49,814 bases of DNA, taken from the IMG/VR virus record IMGVR_UViG_3300038429_000105, positions 1 to 49,814 of that record; one strand, written 5' to 3'. The notes below the pieces were generated by a model, which saw nothing but the letters and a program-made list of their open reading frames with translations, made no database searches and was not told the origin of the DNA. Shown here one piece after another: positions 1,345 through 45,443 of this stretch. The number at the start of each line of letters is the position of its first letter. Positions within the stretch are counted from its first letter, which is position 1. Origin of the DNA: a virus. The position numbers were made by a program, and so were the translations under genes.

Positions 1345-2283
1345 TTATGTCCAACTCCTAGGATTTGGTGAAATAAAGTTAACACGAAATCCTAGTGCGC
1401 CAACAGCCTTCCTATGAACATTCTTTGCTTTACGCAACGCCTTGTCATAAGCCATATACAATGGGTCAGCAAACTGCGGCTTGCTATCTCTATACCGATA
1501 GAGCCATGCCGAATACTTTAATAATGCTTCCTCATATCCTGTGGCAAAAGGGTACATACCATAATCTGAATATACAGGGAGTGGTTTTGCATAATAGGGA
1601 ACTGTGATAATTTGACCTGTGGTTGTCGGGGCAGGGTCTAGGAATATTTGATACCGTGGCTGTGGTTGGATGATATAGCTGACTCCGTTTGCCCACCCTA
1701 CATACTGACTGCTCCTTGTTGAAATATTGAACATAGCAGTCGTAAGTGAAGTTGACACAGCGAGAACTTTGCCAAAATAATTATTGGTGACATCTATAAT
1801 GTCATCACCAACAGCTACCGTTGAAAATAATGTTTGCACAGAGTCAATTAGACTAGACTGACCACCAGTAGCGGTGCTTGAATTTGTAGTGCTTCCTGTG
1901 ATTTGTATAACGATGGGATAATCGGCTATCGCGTGTGACGTAGGTGTTCCGGGCGAGTTATTATTCTGTAAATAATTGGAATAACTTTCCCATCCAAGCC
2001 ATGATATAACGGGAGATGAAATTGTTCCGGTATTGTATTGCACAAGACCGAAATTGTCATCGTCAGTCGTCAATACCTCTAGGAAATCAGGATTAAGAGG
2101 ATATGCCGCTTGGTTAGCAACGGTAGTTATCGCTTGCGAATTTGTGCAACACTTTGTTTCCTTGGCAAAGTCCTTCGCCGCCTCATACATAAAATCGAAT
2201 GAGCCTTTTAAATCAATCCATTGGCTTCCACTGGACTCTGAAAGAAGAAGATTGATACGGGATTGATAATCCAATCCTAACAT
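1345..2283 (-). CDS. head-tail connector / adaptor-like protein
   Basis: 312 aa. It begins MLGLDYQSRINLLLSESSGS, followed by a helix ending in KDFAKETKC and then a 'Q..YPLNPDFLEV' segment. That order (N-terminal helical bundle, Cys/Thr turn, 'aYpLP.d' strand) is usual for podovirus connector proteins that dock under the portal. The C-terminal part holds helices with 'YEEALLKYSAWLYRYRDSKP', as in adaptor families that assemble as dodecamers. It sits between the head genes and the nozzle-like gene, in the expected place. ATG start at 2283. The family call rests on layout and motif pattern only. Confidence 0.6.
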   Translation of the reverse strand: MLGLDYQSRINLLLSESSGSQWIDLKGSFDFMYEAAKDFAKETKCCTNSQAITTVANQAAYPLNPDFLEVLTTDDDNFGLVQYNTGTISSPVISWLGWESYSNYLQNNNSPGTPTSHAIADYPIVIQITGSTTNSSTATGGQSSLIDSVQTLFSTVAVGDDIIDVTNNYFGKVLAVSTSLTTAMFNISTRSSQYVGWANGVSYIIQPQPRYQIFLDPAPTTTGQIITVPYYAKPLPVYSDYGMYPFATGYEEALLKYSAWLYRYRDSKPQFADPLYMAYDKALRKAKNVHRKAVGALGFRVNFISPNPRSWT

Positions 2284-4399: not shown

Positions 4400-5350
4400 T
4401 TATGGAACCTGTTGGAAGTAAAATGCTTGCCAACCTGTGAAGCCGTAGCCCCAATAACTGTATAGAGAGAATTTGAGACGGAAGGTTTCAAAATCAATCT
4501 TTGCCCCACCTTCATCTTCCATACGGGTTATCCACATGGCAAGTTTCTTTAAAAGACCCCAATCGACCATTATCCAGTTTTTCGTTGAATAATCGTTGAA
4601 ATACTGGGATGTTTTATATTCCCACTTCCTTCGGTTCTGGACATTGATAGTCCCCTCAGCAGAATACAATCCTTTTTCAGTTGCAGTCAGCTCTTCAAAT
4701 CTCTGGTCATAGGATGTCGCTCCTATAAAACCATCGGGATTAATGGCGAGGATTTCACCATTAAGACCCCTGAATCCCCTCATAAGGATTCGCGTGGCTT
4801 CTACAGTAGTGGGATTAAATGCAGCAGTTCCCAAGTTACTGTTTCCCGGCTGGCTAAATGCTGAGTAAGTCACATAATCATTTTTGGTGGTATGTGCTGT
4901 GCTGGCAATAGCCACGCCTTCTTCATTCCACGGCATGAAATCGAATGCGGCAGAATTAAGGTTTGCATAACCTCTAATTGCGGCTTTCTCTTTGGTTCTG
5001 TGGGCTGCGGTCATCAGCTCCCTAGGAATGTCCTTTAGAACATTATAGAGGTTGTTTAACCAAAGCTTTCTTTCCAATTCTACCGCAAATGCAAATTCGG
5101 CGGGTTCGATACGAACTCCATAACCCGGAGCCATATCTACATACCGGAGTGTTCCGTTAAAACGTGGCATATCCGGTAAACCGCTTACGCTGTATTTTTC
5201 GTAAAAGGCTGAGTCTATGTGTTCGTGAGTATAAAGAGTCTCTGCCAAGGTTTCCCTCTGATGCAGTTCCTCTGTCACCTCCGCCGTAACTTTGTCCCAA
5301 CCTTTTCTAACTAATTCGGGTAATCTTGATTGAACTATAGGATTAGGCAT
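4400..5350 (-). CDS. major capsid protein (HK97-fold type)
   Basis: 316 aa, beginning MPNPIVQSRLPELVRKGWDK. The fixed features suit an HK97-type shell protein: an N-terminal helix, a long central helix around ERKLWLNNLYNVLKDIPREL, an E-loop-like middle, a core with VEATRILMRGFRGLNGE and LAINPDGFIG, and a C-terminal aromatic strand (YSYWGYGFTGWQAFYFQQVP) typical of these families. It comes after scaffold and portal and before the connector, the normal position. The scaffold is a separate gene here, so no N-terminal delta domain is expected. Its 11-nt spacing from the upstream 273-aa gene suggests co-translation. Confidence 0.82.
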   Translation of the reverse strand: MPNPIVQSRLPELVRKGWDKVTAEVTEELHQRETLAETLYTHEHIDSAFYEKYSVSGLPDMPRFNGTLRYVDMAPGYGVRIEPAEFAFAVELERKLWLNNLYNVLKDIPRELMTAAHRTKEKAAIRGYANLNSAAFDFMPWNEEGVAIASTAHTTKNDYVTYSAFSQPGNSNLGTAAFNPTTVEATRILMRGFRGLNGEILAINPDGFIGATSYDQRFEELTATEKGLYSAEGTINVQNRRKWEYKTSQYFNDYSTKNWIMVDWGLLKKLAMWITRMEDEGGAKIDFETFRLKFSLYSYWGYGFTGWQAFYFQQVP

Positions 5351-17891: not shown

Positions 17892-19112
17892 GTGAAACAA
17901 ATTATAAAAGAGTGCCGTGATTTCTTGGATGGTGAATGCGCCGATTACGGTATGTTGGAAGATATTATTGTAAAACATTTTGAACAAAAAAAATGGCTTG
18001 GCGATTCCCTAGAACTCACGAAAGAGAATAACTGGAGAAGGACGTTTGAAATACCGGCGACATTAAGTAGCATTCTTGAACTAAAAAACCTTTTCGATTA
18101 CATTAGCTCAATAACGGGAGGAAAATTCATACCGACAGAGGATTTGAAATTCACCGATGGGAAGAAAAATTACTATTCAGTGACGACAGTTATCAAGGAG
18201 AATTTTGAAAAACTATTATTAGGGTGCGGCATGATGTTACTAGACTACAATTTGGGTTGTGGAAGGAAGACCTTCATGGAGTATTATGCCGCCTCACTAC
18301 AAAAAGGGAAGGAAAAGGCGGAAGCAGGTTTGTTATGTAGGATAGGAGAACTCGCAAAGCGTGGCACGCTCATCACATTGACTATCAACCCATTTGACTT
18401 TTTAACAGCGAGTGATGATGACGGGAGAAAAAAGTATTGCGCCTACACCTCATGCGTGAGATTTCACGGAGAGATGTTCAATACTATTCTGGATTATCTT
18501 GCCAGTGACAACGTAGTGATGTCCTTCACTTCATATAGCGACAAACCTTTATACAAATTAGGGCGTATGATAAATTATGTCAGCCCCGTCAGGATAGCTC
18601 AAACAAGGTCATTCGGTAGTTACTCTAATTTTGAGAGAGACCTGATTTTGCTGTATATTCTTGATAAGATTGGTGGGGATTTCCAAAAGGATTACGAACC
18701 GGCAAGAGCAAGGGACTTCCAATTAGAGAGAACCCCCTATATAGATTATCAGGGTGCAGTTTATACAAAGCATGGAAACAAACGGGAGCAGTTGCATATA
18801 GATAGTGGTTGTTGTTTAGGATGTGGGAAAAAATTGGAAATAGGGAACAATAAACTTGGCCTATGTCATCATTGTAAGGAATCCATGAAGCCATGCATTT
18901 ATTGCGGAGCTTATAGATTGGAAAACAATATGACAACCGTTAATGGAAAACAATATTGTAATAATTGTCTAGAGCGAGTCCAATGGACTAACTGTAAAGA
19001 GTGTGGAAGCGTCATGGAACAAGGGCGGTGGTGTATAAAGTGTAAAGACACCCCGATACCTAAAAAACAAATCAAGCCCTCTTATCCGTGGCTGGGAGGT
19101 GGGATTGCTTGA
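17892..19112 (+). CDS. 406-aa protein with C-terminal zinc ribbons
   Basis: GTG 17892 after AGGAGG. The N-terminal 270 residues are a globular domain with a central 'CAYTSCVRFHGEMFNTILDY' stretch followed by VVMSFTSYSDKPLYKLGRMI, a pattern I have seen in uncharacterised phage proteins. The C-terminal 120 residues carry eight or more Cys in CxxC pairs (CLGCGKK, CHHC, CIYCG, CNNC, CKECG, CIKC), i.e. two or three treble-clef or ribbon units. It overlaps the metallopeptidase gene that follows, so the two are made together. Function unknown; binding of nucleic acid or a protein target is inferred. Confidence 0.65.
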   Translation: MKQIIKECRDFLDGECADYGMLEDIIVKHFEQKKWLGDSLELTKENNWRRTFEIPATLSSILELKNLFDYISSITGGKFIPTEDLKFTDGKKNYYSVTTVIKENFEKLLLGCGMMLLDYNLGCGRKTFMEYYAASLQKGKEKAEAGLLCRIGELAKRGTLITLTINPFDFLTASDDDGRKKYCAYTSCVRFHGEMFNTILDYLASDNVVMSFTSYSDKPLYKLGRMINYVSPVRIAQTRSFGSYSNFERDLILLYILDKIGGDFQKDYEPARARDFQLERTPYIDYQGAVYTKHGNKREQLHIDSGCCLGCGKKLEIGNNKLGLCHHCKESMKPCIYCGAYRLENNMTTVNGKQYCNNCLERVQWTNCKECGSVMEQGRWCIKCKDTPIPKKQIKPSYPWLGGGIA

Positions 19113-20169
19113 TAAAATATTATCCACCAAAACAAGTGAAATAATTAAATTACTGACGGATATTTTTATAAGTATCGTGGGGATAGGGAGAAGTGATGGG
19201 AAAAATTATCTGTATTTTCCTAATAAACAGTCCCCCCTGTTGTATCAGGCGCATTTTGATACTAAGTTAGACGAAAAAGATTATAACAAATATAGTTTAG
19301 TCCGTTATAGGGGAGACGTAGTTGTTTCCGCAAAGGATAGTGTAATGGGAGCAGACGATAGAGCCGGTGTATTTGCCTTGTGGTCTATAGCGAAGTCTCT
19401 CCTTGAAAACAAGTTACCAATACCCTCTCTATTATTCACAAATGGAGAAGAGGACGGTGGCAAAGGGATGAAACAATTTGTCAAGAATTACTTAGCTAGC
19501 GAGTTCGACCATATAAATTTGGCGATAGCTTTTGACCGGAGACACTGTAATGATTATGTCAGCTATGTTAGTAACCCCGATGAGGTAGAGAGTTATATTG
19601 AAGGGTTTGGATTTGTTAGTGAATTTGGTAGTTATTCCGATATAAAAGATTTTTCGGAGCATACGTTAATACCGTCAGTGAACGTATCGGTAGGTTATTA
19701 TAACGAGCATACGGTAAAAGAGGAATTACATTTAGACGAATTAAAAATGACCATGCGTAGGGCTGTCGGAATAGTCAAAGACCCAATTGATAAGCGTTAT
19801 CCATGTAAAGCCAAGACGTGGGGATATTCCGGTGGTTACGGGTATGAAGGGTGGAACAATGGGTGGAAAAATGGCGTAGACCAAAAATGGGACTACCTGA
19901 CAAAGACGTGGGTAGATGTAGTTAAAAGCGGAGAGGAACAACAAGGGGCCTTATTAAATAGTGACGATGGGCAAGAAGCATCGGGTGTTGGAATACAACA
20001 ACACTTCAACGGTTTAGGACGAAAAAAAAGAAATAAATTCAAACTTCGTTGCGAAGCGTGTAAGACCAAAAAAGATGTTTCTTTGCGTTATTGCTACGAT
20101 ACCCAAGATTATGTAGCCGTTTGCGGTAATTGTGCAAAGCGTTTTAACGTAACGATGAGGTCGTTTTAG
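19105..20169 (+). CDS. M20/M28-like zinc metallopeptidase with zinc ribbon
   Basis: TTG 19105 is chosen because GGGAGGTG lies just upstream. The product is about 354 aa. It has the di-zinc peptidase ligand series: AHFDTK (H50, D52), MGADDRAG (D84/D85), NGEEDG (the catalytic Glu pair, near 115), AFDRR (D144), and a late YYNEHT His. These fit M20/M28/M42-type exopeptidases that cleave peptides or amides. The last 45 residues add a zinc ribbon (CEACKTKK ... CGNCAKR), which is unusual and resembles the partner gene upstream. There is no signal peptide, so it acts in the cytoplasm. Activity is a family inference. Confidence 0.75.
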   Translation: MLDKILSTKTSEIIKLLTDIFISIVGIGRSDGKNYLYFPNKQSPLLYQAHFDTKLDEKDYNKYSLVRYRGDVVVSAKDSVMGADDRAGVFALWSIAKSLLENKLPIPSLLFTNGEEDGGKGMKQFVKNYLASEFDHINLAIAFDRRHCNDYVSYVSNPDEVESYIEGFGFVSEFGSYSDIKDFSEHTLIPSVNVSVGYYNEHTVKEELHLDELKMTMRRAVGIVKDPIDKRYPCKAKTWGYSGGYGYEGWNNGWKNGVDQKWDYLTKTWVDVVKSGEEQQGALLNSDDGQEASGVGIQQHFNGLGRKKRNKFKLRCEACKTKKDVSLRYCYDTQDYVAVCGNCAKRFNVTMRSF

Positions 20170-35398: not shown

Positions 35399-35821
35399 TT
35401 AAACCTTTCCCATAAATTTCTCTAAAGCCACAACTCTGTTTTCCCAGCCATCTTTGAATTTAACTTCTTTGGGGTTTTCGGTGATTACGTTGATATAGTG
35501 CTGCCGCCTACATTTTATCATGTCTTCCCAATTACCACACTCTGGAAGCCAATTCAAGACCCTGTGAACTCCGCAGTTGACTGAGGTGTCGAAAGACACC
35601 ATATCTAAGTCATCATCGTTTCCTTGTGCTACCTTGTCCCAATAATCTATTTTGTATAGACTAATTGCTTGGTCTTCCGTTAGGCTTTCAATATCGACAT
35701 CAGGGTGACTTCTTTGTGCTATTCCAAACTTTGTCGTGCCACCGGGGTCATCAGGGTCGTGGGTTACGTGAGAACCGCCTTCCCACCTTAATGTGAATTG
35801 TATAATTCTTTCAAAACCCAT
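35399..35821 (-). CDS. endolysin, GH108-type muramidase
   Basis: 140 aa. LRWEGGSHVTHDPDDPGGTT holds the catalytic Glu and the 'EGG...DP.DPGG.T.fGI' signature of glycoside hydrolase family 108; later YDVSVNCG-like FDTSVNCGVHRVLNWLPE fits the fold. No signal peptide, so it needs the holin. It sits between the two membrane genes of the cassette. Contains an internal operator-like 15-mer. Confidence 0.85.
   Translation of the reverse strand: MGFERIIQFTLRWEGGSHVTHDPDDPGGTTKFGIAQRSHPDVDIESLTEDQAISLYKIDYWDKVAQGNDDDLDMVSFDTSVNCGVHRVLNWLPECGNWEDMIKCRRQHYINVITENPKEVKFKDGWENRVVALEKFMGKV
35646..35660. promoter_or_regulatory. operator-like 15-mer inside the endolysin gene
   Basis: TCTATTTTGTATAGA is identical to the cores at 15770-15784 and 28387-28401, with 5-bp arms here. 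It may be a functional intragenic site or chance. Confidence 0.4.
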
Positions 35822-38792: not shown

Positions 38793-39431
38793 CTAAGCGT
38801 TTCTACAATCCCCATAAGTTATTCCTCCACAAACAAGGAATGTCAATATGTCAGCCTTGTTGGCAGAACTGGATAAGGTCGGCGCACCGCTACCACCCAT
38901 CCATGTAATTGTCGGCCATGTCGTAATCATAAATCCACCTGTTCCCTGCAATAGAATCAACCTGTAAACCTGCCCCGCTACCTGATTAGTAAACGTGATT
39001 GTTCTACCCGTACCCGTAAGGGTGCAATAAGCCGTGGCCGCTACGTTCCAATCTATTGCTATCGTCCCCGTAGTATCAGAAACTAATTGCGTTCCACCCT
39101 CCAACATACCTGATGTGCTGATGGGTGACATTATTCTTACATTAGATATAGTGGTGGGGTCAAATGTATTCGCCCCATAAGATGTATTGGTATATACAAT
39201 ATCGAACCCCTGTGATGTCGCATAATCACCGTCATCAACATAAAAAACATACTTCCCTGTTATGGAGTCACTGGTGATACTGTAAACGTCTACCCCACCG
39301 CTTAAAGCGGCGTACATCTTCGCTGGTGTGGTTGTCCCTGTCAAATATAGAGATACGGTTGTGCTAGGAAGCAGTTTACCGTTCTGGTCTAATGTAAATC
39401 CAATCCCCTCTAAAGGATAAGAAAAGCGCAT
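38793..39431 (-). CDS. tail-fibre-like protein
   Basis: 212 aa. The N-terminus (FTLDQNGKLLPSTTVSLYLT) with ITGKYVFYVDDGDYATSQGF is the common head of podovirus fibre proteins ('G..lp.a.v.ly..GT......tDa.G.y.f....G.Y'). The remainder is beta-rich. Likely attaches fibres to the tail. Confidence 0.6.
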   Translation of the reverse strand: MRFSYPLEGIGFTLDQNGKLLPSTTVSLYLTGTTTPAKMYAALSGGVDVYSITSDSITGKYVFYVDDGDYATSQGFDIVYTNTSYGANTFDPTTISNVRIMSPISTSGMLEGGTQLVSDTTGTIAIDWNVAATAYCTLTGTGRTITFTNQVAGQVYRLILLQGTGGFMITTWPTITWMGGSGAPTLSSSANKADILTFLVCGGITYGDCRNA

Positions 39432-39440
39432 GATGGTCTC

Positions 39441-39968
39441 CTACAGTTCTATGCGGTATAGATTATGGGTCTCGCCGGTTGAAAACCAATCTTCTCGGCT
39501 CTCAATAAACTTACCGCCAAACTTTTTAAATAAATAATCCGATTGCCCAACATGGGCGTGCGAGTAAATCACCTTAAATCCTTCATCTTTGCAAGTGGCA
39601 AGCGTATCCGCTATTAATTGTTTACCAATACCCTTATCTTGATATTCCGGCAAAACTGCAAAGGACATAAAATAAACACCATTCTCTGTTTTCATTTTGG
39701 CAAACACTTCTTCAAGATGAATAGTATCTCGATGACCCTCTTCTCCCATGTCCCCTGCACTATCTTTGGCGACATAAGCCTCGCCGATTATTTTATCGCC
39801 ATCGTAGGCAAATAAAACAATATCAGATTTGAGAACCAATTCTTTTTTACTTTCCCAATCCTCTTGGATGTTTTCGTCAAAACACTGTTCCTCAATTTCC
39901 ATAAGGTCGTGTTCAAATTTATCGGTCAAATCTTCAGAATTAAATCTTTTTATTTTGTAATAACTCAT
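39441..39968 (-). CDS. GNAT-family N-acetyltransferase
   Basis: ATG 39968 chosen for GAGG upstream; 175 aa. FAVLPEYQDKGIGKQLIADT is the acetyl-CoA-binding motif A (Q-D-K-G-I-G-K), preceded by the IVLFAYDGDKIIGEAYVA strands of the GNAT core and followed by FKVIYSHAHVGQSDYLFKKF. It acetylates an amine of unknown identity. It overlaps the HELIE gene by 29 nt and belongs to a three-gene cluster with the ATP-grasp gene. Confidence 0.8.
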   Translation of the reverse strand: MSYYKIKRFNSEDLTDKFEHDLMEIEEQCFDENIQEDWESKKELVLKSDIVLFAYDGDKIIGEAYVAKDSAGDMGEEGHRDTIHLEEVFAKMKTENGVYFMSFAVLPEYQDKGIGKQLIADTLATCKDEGFKVIYSHAHVGQSDYLFKKFGGKFIESREDWFSTGETHNLYRIEL

Positions 39969-40323
39969 TGCAAGCCTCATCGTAATGTTCTAAATCCACT
40001 CTTGATTCTATCGCCACCAGTGTCTCACAAGCGTCAGAGAATATATGTTCTTTATGTATGGGGCTGTCGGGGCTTTCTGAATCGGGGCTTTCGCCTTCTG
40101 CAAAAATCTTGTCGCAATAGGTATCTATTTTTCTAACAGGAATACCATGCGCCATAAGCAACGTGTTTTCGATTAATTCGTGTATTGCTATAAAGCGATT
40201 GTAAAGCTCGTTACCTGTTTCAGCCACATATATTCTCGTGGTGTCCCCTATTGTTTCATAATAGTCCCCTAGACCATGCCACCGCATTTGTTCTATAGGA
40301 AGGGTCTCTATCGTTATCTTCAT
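39940..40323 (-). CDS. HELIE-motif protein (candidate metal-dependent enzyme)
   Basis: 127 aa. IAIHELIENTLL (H48, E49, E52) resembles zinc-peptidase helices but has Glu where HExxH has the second His. TTRIYVAETGNELYNRF and a Ser/Asp/Pro-rich loop (EGESPDSESPDSPIHK) flank it. It overlaps the ATP-grasp gene by 4 nt and the GNAT by 29. A metal-binding or degenerate-peptidase role is possible; catalysis is unproven. Confidence 0.5.
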   Translation of the reverse strand: MKITIETLPIEQMRWHGLGDYYETIGDTTRIYVAETGNELYNRFIAIHELIENTLLMAHGIPVRKIDTYCDKIFAEGESPDSESPDSPIHKEHIFSDACETLVAIESRVDLEHYDEACNELLQNKKI

Positions 40324-41576
40324 ATCTCTATACCAAACGGCTTGCCCTTATCTATTACCTCTTGTGCTTTATCAAAAACGGATTCGTCATACTCCATGCC
40401 AAGGCAAATTATTGAACCGGCTACTTCGAGTGCTTTACTCGTGGCGGATTCCACACTGTTGCCAGTAGCCACGACCGCTCCAAAATATCCATCTTTTGCA
40501 TCGTTGGGTAAGCAATAATATTTTTTATTATATTTATATGAGTGCTGTAATTTTACATTATCCTTGTATTCTTCAGGAAACTCCACACAGATTTCATGGT
40601 CTTGGTTAAACCAAGAAGTCAGGATAATTATTGCCCCGTGGCTGTTTTTGCTTTCCATTTTTGGCATATCACCATTCGCTACATCAAAAACATCCTGTGG
40701 AAAGTCTGTATAGGACTCACAAAATCCTTGACCCGGAGGAGAACCAAACCTCGCTGTCCCGTCTGTGAACCGTTTTATCCCCTGCTCGTTAATCCTTATT
40801 TCCGTTGACCAAGCCCCTTTATACCCTCTTTCTCTAAACTTGGGTTCCATTCTTTTGTCAACATCATCTATAACTTCGGGGAAGGAATCGGTTATTCTAT
40901 ATATATAGCCTTTATCCTTTATTTCATATCCTATTGAACCTACGGGCGTTCTTTTTCCGTTGACTATGTATCTGTCGCCCCCTGCCTCTACAATGGCAGG
41001 AAAGTTATCCTGAATGAGTAATTCGATAATATTTGAAGCCCGTTCACCCAACTTGGCTCTCTGGACGTTTACCCACGGCATAAAGGTGTCCAAAGTATCG
41101 AATGGGATAGTATCGAAATCACCCCTACAGTAAGGTGTTTTAACCCATAACCTACCATTCCCACGTTTTTTAAAATACTCTATCGCCTCATCGAAACCTT
41201 CGGCAAAGTAAGTATGGATAGGAGTCAACCCTACCTCTGCGCTAGCTTCAAGGAATAGTCTACGATTTATCTCAAACTCTGCTGATAGCCCTGAGCCAAA
41301 GCATCTATACCCCTCATCCCATAATGTATTGCATAACTCTCCATCAAACTCTCCGGGAAAGAAAATCAAATCCGCCTTATCTTTATATTCCTCAAAGTCA
41401 TCTATTTTCTCCACGCCATCGAGACCCGCACCAATCTGGTCTTCCCTAGACGTTGGCTGCTGTCCAAGTATAGGGGTGAACAACCAAACTTCTGCCGCCC
41501 TTTCTGCCAATTTCTCAACTAGATAAGTATGGTATCCGCGCTCATAACAGAGAATTTTTTGATGTTCAATTCCCAC
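40320..41576 (-). CDS. ATP-grasp ligase (PurD/carboxylase-like)
   Basis: GTG 41576 after GGAG; 418 aa. GSGLSAEFEINRRLFLEASA (95-114) is the family's early helix, GRLWVKTPYCRG (K146) the ATP-binding lysine strand, WSTEIRINEQG (E259) and DGTARFGSPPGQGF (272-285) the metal and nucleotide site, like GAR synthetase 'DARFGDPE.Q'. ATP-grasp enzymes join a carboxylate to an amine or thiol. No purine genes are nearby; the neighbours are a HELIE protein and a GNAT, so peptide or protein modification is inferred. Confidence 0.75.
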   Translation of the reverse strand: MGIEHQKILCYERGYHTYLVEKLAERAAEVWLFTPILGQQPTSREDQIGAGLDGVEKIDDFEEYKDKADLIFFPGEFDGELCNTLWDEGYRCFGSGLSAEFEINRRLFLEASAEVGLTPIHTYFAEGFDEAIEYFKKRGNGRLWVKTPYCRGDFDTIPFDTLDTFMPWVNVQRAKLGERASNIIELLIQDNFPAIVEAGGDRYIVNGKRTPVGSIGYEIKDKGYIYRITDSFPEVIDDVDKRMEPKFRERGYKGAWSTEIRINEQGIKRFTDGTARFGSPPGQGFCESYTDFPQDVFDVANGDMPKMESKNSHGAIIILTSWFNQDHEICVEFPEEYKDNVKLQHSYKYNKKYYCLPNDAKDGYFGAVVATGNSVESATSKALEVAGSIICLGMEYDESVFDKAQEVIDKGKPFGIEI

Positions 41577-41579
41577 TCT

Positions 41580-44500
41580 CTATTCTCCTATTTCCTTAAC
41601 GGGTGAGTTTGGAATCTCCGGCTCAGTCTCGCTCTGTTTCGGCTGTGTTTGATTCCTTGTCAACAAAAACTCATAGCCTTTTATTGCGTCCAGATAGAAT
41701 GGTAACATCTCTTTATATTTTTCAGGGTGGCTTTTCTCTAAAAGCCCCATTCTCTTCTCCAATATCGGGAAGTAATACATCTTCTCATCCGAAGTGGCTT
41801 TATCCCACACCTTAAAGATAGACCTCAAATCCATGCGGTTATCCGATATATACTTTTCAACCATGTCCTCTTTTGCATACTTCTCTATCTTTTGGACATC
41901 CTCTCCGTATAATTTATTATCTATAAGTGCTTGATTTACTTTTTTATCTGCATCGTTATACTTGTCAATGTCGTGTTCTTTAATTGCTTCCCGCTTTTGC
42001 CTCGCTAATTTTGTGACCAGATTATACCTGTCCCGTTCTTCTCTTGGCATTGTAGTAACAACTGCCTTGCTGTGTTCCCACATTAATGCCCGTTCAAAGG
42101 TTGTTCTGGTCTTGAAAGCATTGACACCCATAGAAGCTAACACCTGTTCCCATATCTTTCTTTCGTTCTTTGTCTGAAACGGAATAGGGACGGATGTAGC
42201 CGCAAATGAGTTTACTTGGTCTTGCAAATCCATGTATCTACCGAACTCGTCTCGCCTTGATAATGCTTTAATAATTGGCAAGGCTAGAAAGGGGCTTAAC
42301 CTATTATAAGCGAACCCTTGAGGGTCTGTAACTAAGTGCATGACATCTCCGGGGACGCTTCGTAAGGTGAACTCCTCGTCTCCCCACACCACAGAGAACG
42401 CCTTATCTGCTCCCCATTTTGCATCCCCATTATTGAGTAGGGAATTGGCTATTCTAGCGGTGACATACATTCCTAATGCTCCCCTTACTACGGCTGCCAT
42501 AGCTTGTTCATTAGGGGTTAAATCAGATAATTTCTTTGGTATACCTCCGTATGGTCTCATTGCCTGACCTGCAAACCTGATACGAGCTTCCAAGAAGTCA
42601 GGAGCCAGCCCAATTAATCTAAACACATCCTGTATGGTAGGATTACGGGCTAACTTGGCATAATTCAGTTCTCCAAAGGCTGCGTTTGATTGGTCGGCGG
42701 TGAGGCTCATAATCTGTTCATCAGTTAGTTTACCTGCATATCTTTTTGTATTTCTCGCATATGCCTCTTTTGCCATACTCATTTTTAGGCGTGGGATATA
42801 GTCGGTAAACAGATAATCCGTATACATCTGTGTGACCTTCCCAATACCGGGAATCTTTGCTATTAAACCACCAGAGGTCAACCCCTCATGGAACAATTCC
42901 ATGTTTTTATAATCGGAAACTATAAGACCCTTTTTTACCAATGCTTCCTGCAAAGGGTCGCTGAAGTCTATCTTTCCTGTTCTCTTCCACCCTAAAATGT
43001 CCATACCAAAAGGGTTGACTTTATGGAACATGGCATGAACACCAACTTGAACTTGATGGAATCCACTAAGGGATAACAAAGTCCCTTTTAGCGTTGCCGC
43101 TGTTTGCAGGACAGCCCTTCCAAAACTATTCTGTCTGATTGCGGATGTCTTGAGGATATTGTTCAGTTTCTTATAAATATCCTTATGGACTAGCATATCG
43201 GCTTGTGTAAATATGGGTTGTCCATCGGCATCTTTGGATACCCATTTCCATTTCCTTAACGCGGGGTGGTCTATTATTTTATAATTATCATACGCCTCAT
43301 CTGGTATAGAACGCGGTTTAACAAAGTAACCACTACCCATTGTTTCATCTTCTTTGACCCAAGACCTGTATTTCCCTGAACCCATAGGGACAAATGCAGG
43401 GCTACCATCCTTCATATCCAAGTCATGTAGAGATTTTATAAAAGTTCTTGCGGCAATGGCTCTGTTAAACGCTTGGTCGTATGCCGTTATCATTGCACCT
43501 ATATCTTTATTCAAAGGTTTTAAACCAACTCTCTCCCCCTCAAAATAAGAACTTAAAATTCTCTTCCGTAACATAGATGGTTTCGTGGTTAGCTTTCCAC
43601 CGATAATATCTCCTTTGAGTGCCGTAGATATTGCATTGTCTTTTTTCCACATTTGTGGGATATAATTATCTATACCCGCCTTTAGCATCCCACTATCTTT
43701 GGCTATCTGTAATTTAGCGTCAAAATATTGAGCAACATTGCCCGCCCATATTTTTTCTTCTGGTGTTAGCTCGGTGGCTAACTTGTAACCATCTGCGTAT
43801 TGCTTTGCCTTATTATTGGCAAGATGTTCTTGGTGCTGACGCATCAACAAGCCGTCATCACCATCGGCTTGTAAATAATTTATTATGGCTTCCCTTCTTT
43901 TAGGGTCGGATATTTGTTTCCTTATATTTGCGGCAAATTGTTTTGCTTCAAATGAGGTTATTTGATAACTGCCAATATACTCGTCCCTTATTCTATCGAA
44001 GTCAGTATATTTTGGTTTCCCTATTTCTCCTGATTTTGCATCGTTCCATAAAGTTCTTCCAAGTATATTTAATTCAGTGATGCCCCTGTTTAGCGAGTCC
44101 TTAAAGTTTGAAAATCTGTCGGCAAGGGATACTGCGTTTGACATCCTTTTCCTCAGCGGGATTTTGGGCGACACAACTCCGTCTAGTGCTTTGTTTAATT
44201 GGGTAATGTCGGTAGGCGTCTCTCTTTTCGATTTAATACCTCTAGCACCAACACCTTTTTCGCCCGCTAGCGGTTGTTCCTCTGGTTTCCCCTGTCCTAA
44301 CAATCTCTTTAATTCTGCCGATTCAGTTTGTCGGATAAACTTGCCACTCTTGTCAACGAACCCTGTGATAGTCCCACCATATGAAGTGCCAGTTCTCTCA
44401 ATAATATCTGCGTGGGTCTCCCCAAGTTCTCCGACATAAATCTTCCCGTCCTCCATATTGGCCAAACGTAGACCTTGAGGGTTTTTTTCCGATATTATAT

Positions 44501-45443
44501 TAGTAGTTTCTTCTTCCTGTCTTTTATCTAACTCATTCAAGTAATCTTCAGGTGTTTGTTTTATATTTTTAGTAACAGCAGATGTTTTTGCTGCTTGTTC
44601 TTTTTTAGATTTTCCCACTTCAGCTAAGGGGGGTGTCTTTGATAGTTCGGGTATTTCTGAAAGAACTCTAGGCTGTTCGAGGGGTTTAGAGCCACCTTTT
44701 CTCCAATCCTCCCATGCTTTCGCCCTATATCGTATCTCTTCAAGCCTGATAGGAACCCCGACTGCTTTACGGGCTAATCTTGGTGCTTCTGCTAAAGCCC
44801 ATGTTTTTAGAATAGCTGCTATTATTGGCTCCCCAATAGTCCTGTCACCGGAGCCTTCGATAATTGCTTGTTTTACTTTATCCCAGTTTGCCCCGGTAGA
44901 TGCCATGCCAGCACCAGCAGCGAGACCCATTGTTGGTTTAATGAGAATATTACTTGCCACCCAGTCGGCAATATTAAGTAATTTTTCAAACGGCCAGCCA
45001 ATCAGTTCCAATGATTCTTTTTCTGTCTTGGTTAGGTTAAGTTGTTCTGATAGCCAGTTTGATGTTTTCTCGCTTGCTTCCTGTGCTGATGCAAGGGATT
45101 CATCTATATTCCCACCAGAAGATATCCTGCCTAGACCTGCCGCCATTCCAGAATAACCACCGGCAATCTGCCCCGGTATGCTTCCTGTGGCAGCAACAGG
45201 CACTTTCCATAAAGCATTTCCAAAACTCTTTACGGACTCCCACATATTTGAGTCGGATGGTTCTTTTTTAAGAGAGTTCAAATACTGTTCAGGTGACTGA
45301 TTTTTTGTATCAATCTTGGCAGGGGTATTTTTCTGCCTACCTTCAAGGCTATTTACATACTCCTCTGGAGTAAACTCTGATGGTGGTTTCTGCGCCACAG
45401 AACCTTTGCCCTCAAGGTTATTTAAGTATTCTTCAGGTGTCAT
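41580..45443 (-). CDS. very large internal virion / ejection protein
   Basis: 1,287 aa. Four copies of a short motif start it or its linker: TPEEYLNNLEG (2-12), TPEEYVNSLEG (25-35), SPEQYLNSLKK (50-60) and TPEDYLNELDK (297-306). A Gly/Ala-rich hydrophobic stretch (170-183) could insert in membrane. A long helical C-terminal region follows. Size and place after the nozzle and internal proteins match podovirus proteins ejected with DNA. No lytic motif is obvious. Confidence 0.7.
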   Translation of the reverse strand: MTPEEYLNNLEGKGSVAQKPPSEFTPEEYVNSLEGRQKNTPAKIDTKNQSPEQYLNSLKKEPSDSNMWESVKSFGNALWKVPVAATGSIPGQIAGGYSGMAAGLGRISSGGNIDESLASAQEASEKTSNWLSEQLNLTKTEKESLELIGWPFEKLLNIADWVASNILIKPTMGLAAGAGMASTGANWDKVKQAIIEGSGDRTIGEPIIAAILKTWALAEAPRLARKAVGVPIRLEEIRYRAKAWEDWRKGGSKPLEQPRVLSEIPELSKTPPLAEVGKSKKEQAAKTSAVTKNIKQTPEDYLNELDKRQEEETTNIISEKNPQGLRLANMEDGKIYVGELGETHADIIERTGTSYGGTITGFVDKSGKFIRQTESAELKRLLGQGKPEEQPLAGEKGVGARGIKSKRETPTDITQLNKALDGVVSPKIPLRKRMSNAVSLADRFSNFKDSLNRGITELNILGRTLWNDAKSGEIGKPKYTDFDRIRDEYIGSYQITSFEAKQFAANIRKQISDPKRREAIINYLQADGDDGLLMRQHQEHLANNKAKQYADGYKLATELTPEEKIWAGNVAQYFDAKLQIAKDSGMLKAGIDNYIPQMWKKDNAISTALKGDIIGGKLTTKPSMLRKRILSSYFEGERVGLKPLNKDIGAMITAYDQAFNRAIAARTFIKSLHDLDMKDGSPAFVPMGSGKYRSWVKEDETMGSGYFVKPRSIPDEAYDNYKIIDHPALRKWKWVSKDADGQPIFTQADMLVHKDIYKKLNNILKTSAIRQNSFGRAVLQTAATLKGTLLSLSGFHQVQVGVHAMFHKVNPFGMDILGWKRTGKIDFSDPLQEALVKKGLIVSDYKNMELFHEGLTSGGLIAKIPGIGKVTQMYTDYLFTDYIPRLKMSMAKEAYARNTKRYAGKLTDEQIMSLTADQSNAAFGELNYAKLARNPTIQDVFRLIGLAPDFLEARIRFAGQAMRPYGGIPKKLSDLTPNEQAMAAVVRGALGMYVTARIANSLLNNGDAKWGADKAFSVVWGDEEFTLRSVPGDVMHLVTDPQGFAYNRLSPFLALPIIKALSRRDEFGRYMDLQDQVNSFAATSVPIPFQTKNERKIWEQVLASMGVNAFKTRTTFERALMWEHSKAVVTTMPREERDRYNLVTKLARQKREAIKEHDIDKYNDADKKVNQALIDNKLYGEDVQKIEKYAKEDMVEKYISDNRMDLRSIFKVWDKATSDEKMYYFPILEKRMGLLEKSHPEKYKEMLPFYLDAIKGYEFLLTRNQTQPKQSETEPEIPNSPVKEIGE

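Follow-up and report, generated by a model that had tools for sequence, protein, structure and literature searches.

In the window, by which we mean the whole 49,814-nucleotide stretch of viral DNA analysed, three overlapping genes are located on the minus strand. The first (41576–40320, minus strand) has a GTG start and encodes a PurD-like ATP-grasp protein of 418 amino acids, the core of the unit. It is followed by a gene for a protein of 127 residues (40323–39940, minus strand), here called HELIE, which contains an HExxE motif and has a weakly matching zincin-like fold, and by one for a GNAT acetyltransferase (39980–39441, minus strand). The latter is 179 residues long when read from its first ATG and 175 residues when read from the second (at 39968, minus strand, beginning MSYYK). 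The ATP-grasp and HELIE genes share four nucleotides (ATGA), while the HELIE and GNAT genes overlap by 41 nucleotides from the first GNAT ATG and by 29 from the second. Directly upstream lies a large reading frame of 1287 codons (41580–45443, minus strand), for which an ejection-type function is suggested by size and position; directly downstream is a fibre-like reading frame (38793–39431, minus strand), with a PHROG tail-fibre match of 3.9e-6. The sequence-only reading had placed a three-gene cluster with overlaps of 4 and 29 nucleotides between the ejection protein and the fibres. The list of open reading frames agrees on both points, with same-strand reading frames at either side, the value of 29 presupposing the second GNAT ATG. 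Its statement that the cluster is transcribed with the virion genes is in keeping with the common strand and the overlaps, and it is from these two features that shared transcription would follow. A promoter search of the window gave 43 matches against 39.3 expected, no excess over chance.

Elsewhere in the window, matches to an SU10-type adaptor (1345–2283, minus strand), weakly to a capsid protein (4400–5350, minus strand) and to a GH108 endolysin (35399–35821, minus strand) indicate that the record comes from a tailed phage whose virion module is divergent. A Peptidase_M28 protein (19099–20169, plus strand; 8.5e-6, over the cut-off) is also encoded, its reading frame overlapping one of 406 amino acids (17892–19112) with a weak zinc-ribbon match.

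Neither the ATP-grasp nor the HELIE protein has a significant match in Pfam, PHROGs or NCBIfam. The AF2 model of the ATP-grasp, calculated with 59 relatives from the fetched loci as input, has a pLDDT of 96.3 and a pTM of 0.92. In the PDB its top match is GAR synthetase (PurD), with a Foldseek E-value of 2.7e-23 and a VIA Z of 30.8 for 374 residues at 3.2 Å. PurD occupies ranks 1 to 13 throughout in both Foldseek and VIA, with PurK and PurT ranking after it (VIA Z 24–26). A family profile made from 38 phage ATP-grasp sequences, with no PurD among them, matches the full length of PurD 2yw2 (2.6e-45). The fold is thus nearest to GAR synthetase over the entire chain, and it is this fold, together with the profile match, that places the protein in the PurD branch and gives it its name. 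Loci and contigs of this analysis are designated by L-numbers, L001 being a copy of the window. The profile used for the locus tally (atpg.hmm) absorbed one bacterial PurD (L002) during iteration, so its E-values cannot separate phage ligases from PurD; alignments A2 and A8 are free of this sequence.

The window ATP-grasp belongs to group I, in which E102, K146, R151, D201, E218, K220, E259, D272 and R276 are identical in 59 of 59 sequences. Six of these (K146, E218, K220, E259, D272 and R276) are the basic and acidic residues of the ATP and metal site. We assign their ligand roles by analogy, taking E259, D272 and position 274 to correspond to the residues that bind metal in other members of the superfamily. 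The protein had been named an ATP-grasp from its sequence, and its conserved core, ATP pocket included, is kept by both sequence and predicted fold. The resemblance to GAR synthetase is one of fold and profile: identity is about 15%, and alignments and residue counts show that the PurD motif E-x-N-x-RFGDPE has become D-x-T/C-x-R-x-GSPP in group I, while the PurD loop GPNTGGMG is absent from its alignments. The window protein has neither PurD motif. Replacement of the E-x-N asparagine by T or C implies an altered metal site, and the loss of the PurD hallmarks argues that this is probably no purine enzyme. The phage ATP-grasp is therefore, probably, a ligase that has departed from purine synthesis; to judge from the model, ATP-dependent amide formation is its likely activity, with a virion component, a host component or a small molecule as candidate targets.

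The AF2 model of HELIE has a pLDDT of 95.1. Residues D20, H48, E49, E52, D71, P88 and H93 are invariant in 43 HELIE sequences, and all 43 contain HExxE, not the HExxH of zincins. Foldseek gave no match to the model below 0.001, the best viral match (0.026) being an IrrE protein. The top VIA matches are IrrE, BlaR1, PprI, CapP and Spartan, mostly metallopeptidases, with Z of 5.0 to 4.3, a range which according to VIA's own note possibly reflects merely a common arrangement. The likeness to the zincins (IrrE/PprI, BlaR1 and Spartan, Z up to 5) is thus weak, and HELIE differs from them in the HExxE motif and in a later histidine where the usual third ligand is acidic. A zincin-like protein with a putative metal site, perhaps of SprT/IrrE type, is, with this weak fold match, a reasonable lead, not a result.

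Relatives were reached solely through a HELIE DNA pattern built on a family consensus, which the retrieved sequences bore out; the pattern gave ten viral loci, at least nine of them with clear relatives. In a subsequent profile scan 195 candidates passed tblastn and 80 loci were retained. Used singly as queries, neither the ATP-grasp nor the HELIE protein of the window found a match in viral contigs, and tblastn against INPHARED at 1e-5 was likewise negative. HELIE is an unnamed and common phage protein family with a conserved putative metal site.

In the HELIE-seeded set, which is biased to HELIE and counts the window and its copy, an ATP-grasp gene is present in 51 of 92 entries, and HELIE occurs without it in 40 of the 92 loci examined. 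Several of the latter (L028, L030, L043, L047–L051) have HELIE beside a small-terminase-like gene, pointing to a HELIE role apart from the ligase. The ATP-grasp-seeded set comprises 65 loci, in 64 of which the gene was detected; HELIE accompanies it in 25 of these 64 and is by this count its commonest partner. The two genes nearly always overlap or lie at most 200 nucleotides apart in this set (one pair is separated by 443). The ATP-grasp gene precedes HELIE in the window, L003, L027, L150 and others, while HELIE comes first in most. When the pooled ATP-grasps are clustered at 80% identity, 85 clusters result, 53 with HELIE, 7 with a SpeD-like gene and 5 with a GNAT (these categories overlap); 21 are without a recognised partner.

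The nearest relative of the window ATP-grasp, with 56% identity, is found in L150, where ATP-grasp and HELIE are directly followed by a fibre gene; a GNAT search found none between HELIE and the fibre gene, nor elsewhere in that contig. The trio proposed in the sequence-only reading is accordingly recovered in part: GNAT–ATP-grasp and HELIE–ATP-grasp pairs recur in phages, but the exact trio is absent from the other loci examined. From this, and from the missing GNAT of L150, it follows that the unit has the ligase as its core, around which HELIE, GNAT and a SpeD-like decarboxylase are exchangeable partners. The recurring gene unit around the PurD-like ligase is real.

The window GNAT matches Pfam PF00583 (Acetyltransf_1) with 39.5 bits against a gathering score of 20.7 (7.6e-10), contains the acetyl-CoA motif Q/R-x-x-G-x-G/A as QDKGIG and shows weak similarity to RimI and NAA50. 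A GNAT-seeded scan of viral contigs gave two confident matches, in L138 and L168, each of them adjacent to an ATP-grasp gene; a third hit was weak and concerned a different protein. L138 was already known and formed part of the query, while L168 was new and outside it, leaving the latter as one independent confirmation of the GNAT–ligase linkage. In L168 an ejection reading frame, the ligase and the GNAT are consecutive, with a 4-nucleotide overlap. The 50 ligase-bearing contigs contain five Pfam GNATs, distributed over four of the contigs. Four of the five are no further than about 1.5 kb from the ligase (L138, L127, L117 and L093); the chance of this is 4e-4 by base share, a descriptive value as the 1.5 kb was picked after seeing the positions. 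The GNATs of L020 and others were set aside as window-type partners, being of a different kind and four genes away from the ligase.

These data also bear on the idea that the ejection–fibre junction is an insertion hotspot and the genes are independent cargo with no joint function, which we consider very unlikely. It would account for the sporadic partners and the 21 partnerless clusters, for the lower GC content at the window GNAT (0.368) and its absence from L150, and for contigs that have related ejection genes and no ligase. The start/stop overlaps, the adjacency kept despite reversed gene order and the window-type GNAT family being confidently found only beside ATP-grasp genes all speak against it.

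In 7 of the 85 clusters a SpeD-like gene is located directly or closely upstream of the ligase. The loci are L093, L095, L096, L098, L102, L103–L105 and L107, mostly with the gene directly upstream, and a SpeD-like gene also lies upstream of the ligase in MAG contig L165. PF02675 is over its cut-off in L102 and below it in L096, L103 and L107; the proteins conserve E-S and C. In L093, a GNAT, an HExxE protein, the SpeD-like protein and the ligase are encoded by four overlapping genes. The HExxE protein of L093 (4947–5597; HEELE), located between the GNAT and the SpeD-like gene, is a second protein of this kind, and its kinship with HELIE is not established (hhalign probability 9%). Among the loci that lack HELIE, L138 encodes a C39 peptidase (4e-15) and L133 has, next to its ATP-grasp gene, a gene judged M28-like by eye, for which Pfam stays short of its cut-off (0.16). 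Both are single cases picked out by eye and carry little weight.

The SpeD-like neighbours with their conserved E-S and C could mean that the unit belongs to a small-molecule pathway, forming for instance a polyamine or amino-acid conjugate in the infected cell. Decarboxylation of ornithine or arginine by SpeD homologues of phages has been published (PMC10407285), and the product of PurD is itself a small molecule. However, SpeD-like genes are missing from the window unit and never occur together with HELIE proper in the loci examined, and most units are devoid of an amine-making enzyme; we regard such a pathway as unlikely.

A reading frame of at least 500 residues is positioned directly upstream of the ligase in 41 of the 64 loci with enough flank for this count, and directly on either side in 51. 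Relatives of the 1287-residue ejection-type protein of the window are present in L071, L066, L124 and L152/L154. At its amino-terminus a TPEEYLNNLEG-like motif is repeated three times in tandem, and many of the ejection proteins encoded next to the ligase begin with short tandem motifs. At the amino-termini of large ejection-type proteins such motifs occur both with and without the ligase, examples being DLSxFM in L020 (3209–6004), DPYAAAY in L029 (2821–5574), NPYAKF in L067 (9904–11559) and DWSQFTPD, present twice, in L183 (930–3980). The tandem motif was considered as the ligase substrate; L183/L184 carry one with no ligase in the contig, so it is not ligase-specific and the idea is weakened. 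A further control scan (c29) retrieved no contig beyond those collected before. Some contigs with related ejection genes, L183/L184 included, gave no ligase; these contigs are fragments, and the ligase search detects four known cases, among them L168, which was kept out of the alignment.

The large neighbours raise the alternative that the enzymes are injected effectors, HELIE processing the ejected protein, while GNAT and ATP-grasp would be packaged and act on proteins of the host in the early phase of the following infection. Injected phage proteins are described as including zincin-like peptidases and RimI-like GNATs (PMC5512222), and the frequent flanking of the ligase by large reading frames and the weak RimI and NAA50 similarity of the window GNAT agree with this. 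Here, however, the enzymes are separate small reading frames, not domains of an ejection protein, and HELIE is often beside terminase genes, away from any ejection-type neighbour. We deem this alternative unlikely.

The ligase family is nearly exclusive to uncultured phages and is unnamed in Pfam, PHROGs and NCBIfam; a search of the available papers found none on it. It comprises the roughly 85 clusters of viral contigs, and in INPHARED one full-length relative was found (MW202796), a metagenomic phage genome with a member of a second ligase group and, several genes upstream of it, an annotated GNAT; the remaining matches of that search include bacterial PurD. Prokaryote genomes gave two ligase matches in 84,980 species, both with partner genes, a rarity in cells to be read at lower sensitivity, as the search patterns can miss divergent members. 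Unlike PurD, then, the family sits in virion modules and almost never in cellular genomes.

Phage C–N ligases in gene clusters are also known from LUZ24-like and phiEco32-like phages, which have an amidoligase, a glutamine amidotransferase and an ATP-grasp. The LUZ24-like cluster is in an early module on the other strand (PMC3890496), whereas the units described here consist of other families, with HELIE, GNAT or SpeD-like partners and a late-module position. An R2K ATP-grasp and a GNAT form an operon for which peptide ligation followed by acyl capping was proposed (PMC4431377); the operon arrangement is common to both systems, but the R2K ATP-grasps are CDC123-like and the window family PurD-like. 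The patterns of PMC4431377 and PMC5512222 each support a reading of their own, and the present data favour neither over the other.

By our preferred reading, the PurD-derived ATP-grasp would most likely convert a carboxylate to its acyl phosphate, which it then couples to an amine. HELIE and GNAT may be accessory enzymes of this step or of one preceding or succeeding it; they could trim or provide a peptide or amino group and acylate a free amine. The product would probably be an amide on a late-phase peptide or protein. We hold the chances of such a ligase unit to be evenly balanced. The PurD fold and profile match, the invariant core, the HELIE linkage in 25 of 64 loci, L168, L093, the SpeD-like neighbours and the published ligase–GNAT operons (PMC4431377) support it, while the altered metal site, the partnerless clusters, the 40 of 92 loci with HELIE alone, the weak HELIE fold match and the lack of GNAT in L150 count against it. 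A narrower proposal is that these ligases act on a phage protein of the late phase, possibly the ejected one, to which they would attach a group through an amide bond, the interchangeable partners providing, trimming or capping that group; we consider this improbable.

The ligase usually adjoins a presumed DNA-ejection gene and is found nearly always in uncultured phages; these features recommend it as a candidate for late chemical modification. Should it be active, phages would have recruited a purine enzyme for modification late in infection, in a form that current family libraries do not name, and its position beside the ejection gene would allow a test of whether injected or virion proteins are chemically modified.
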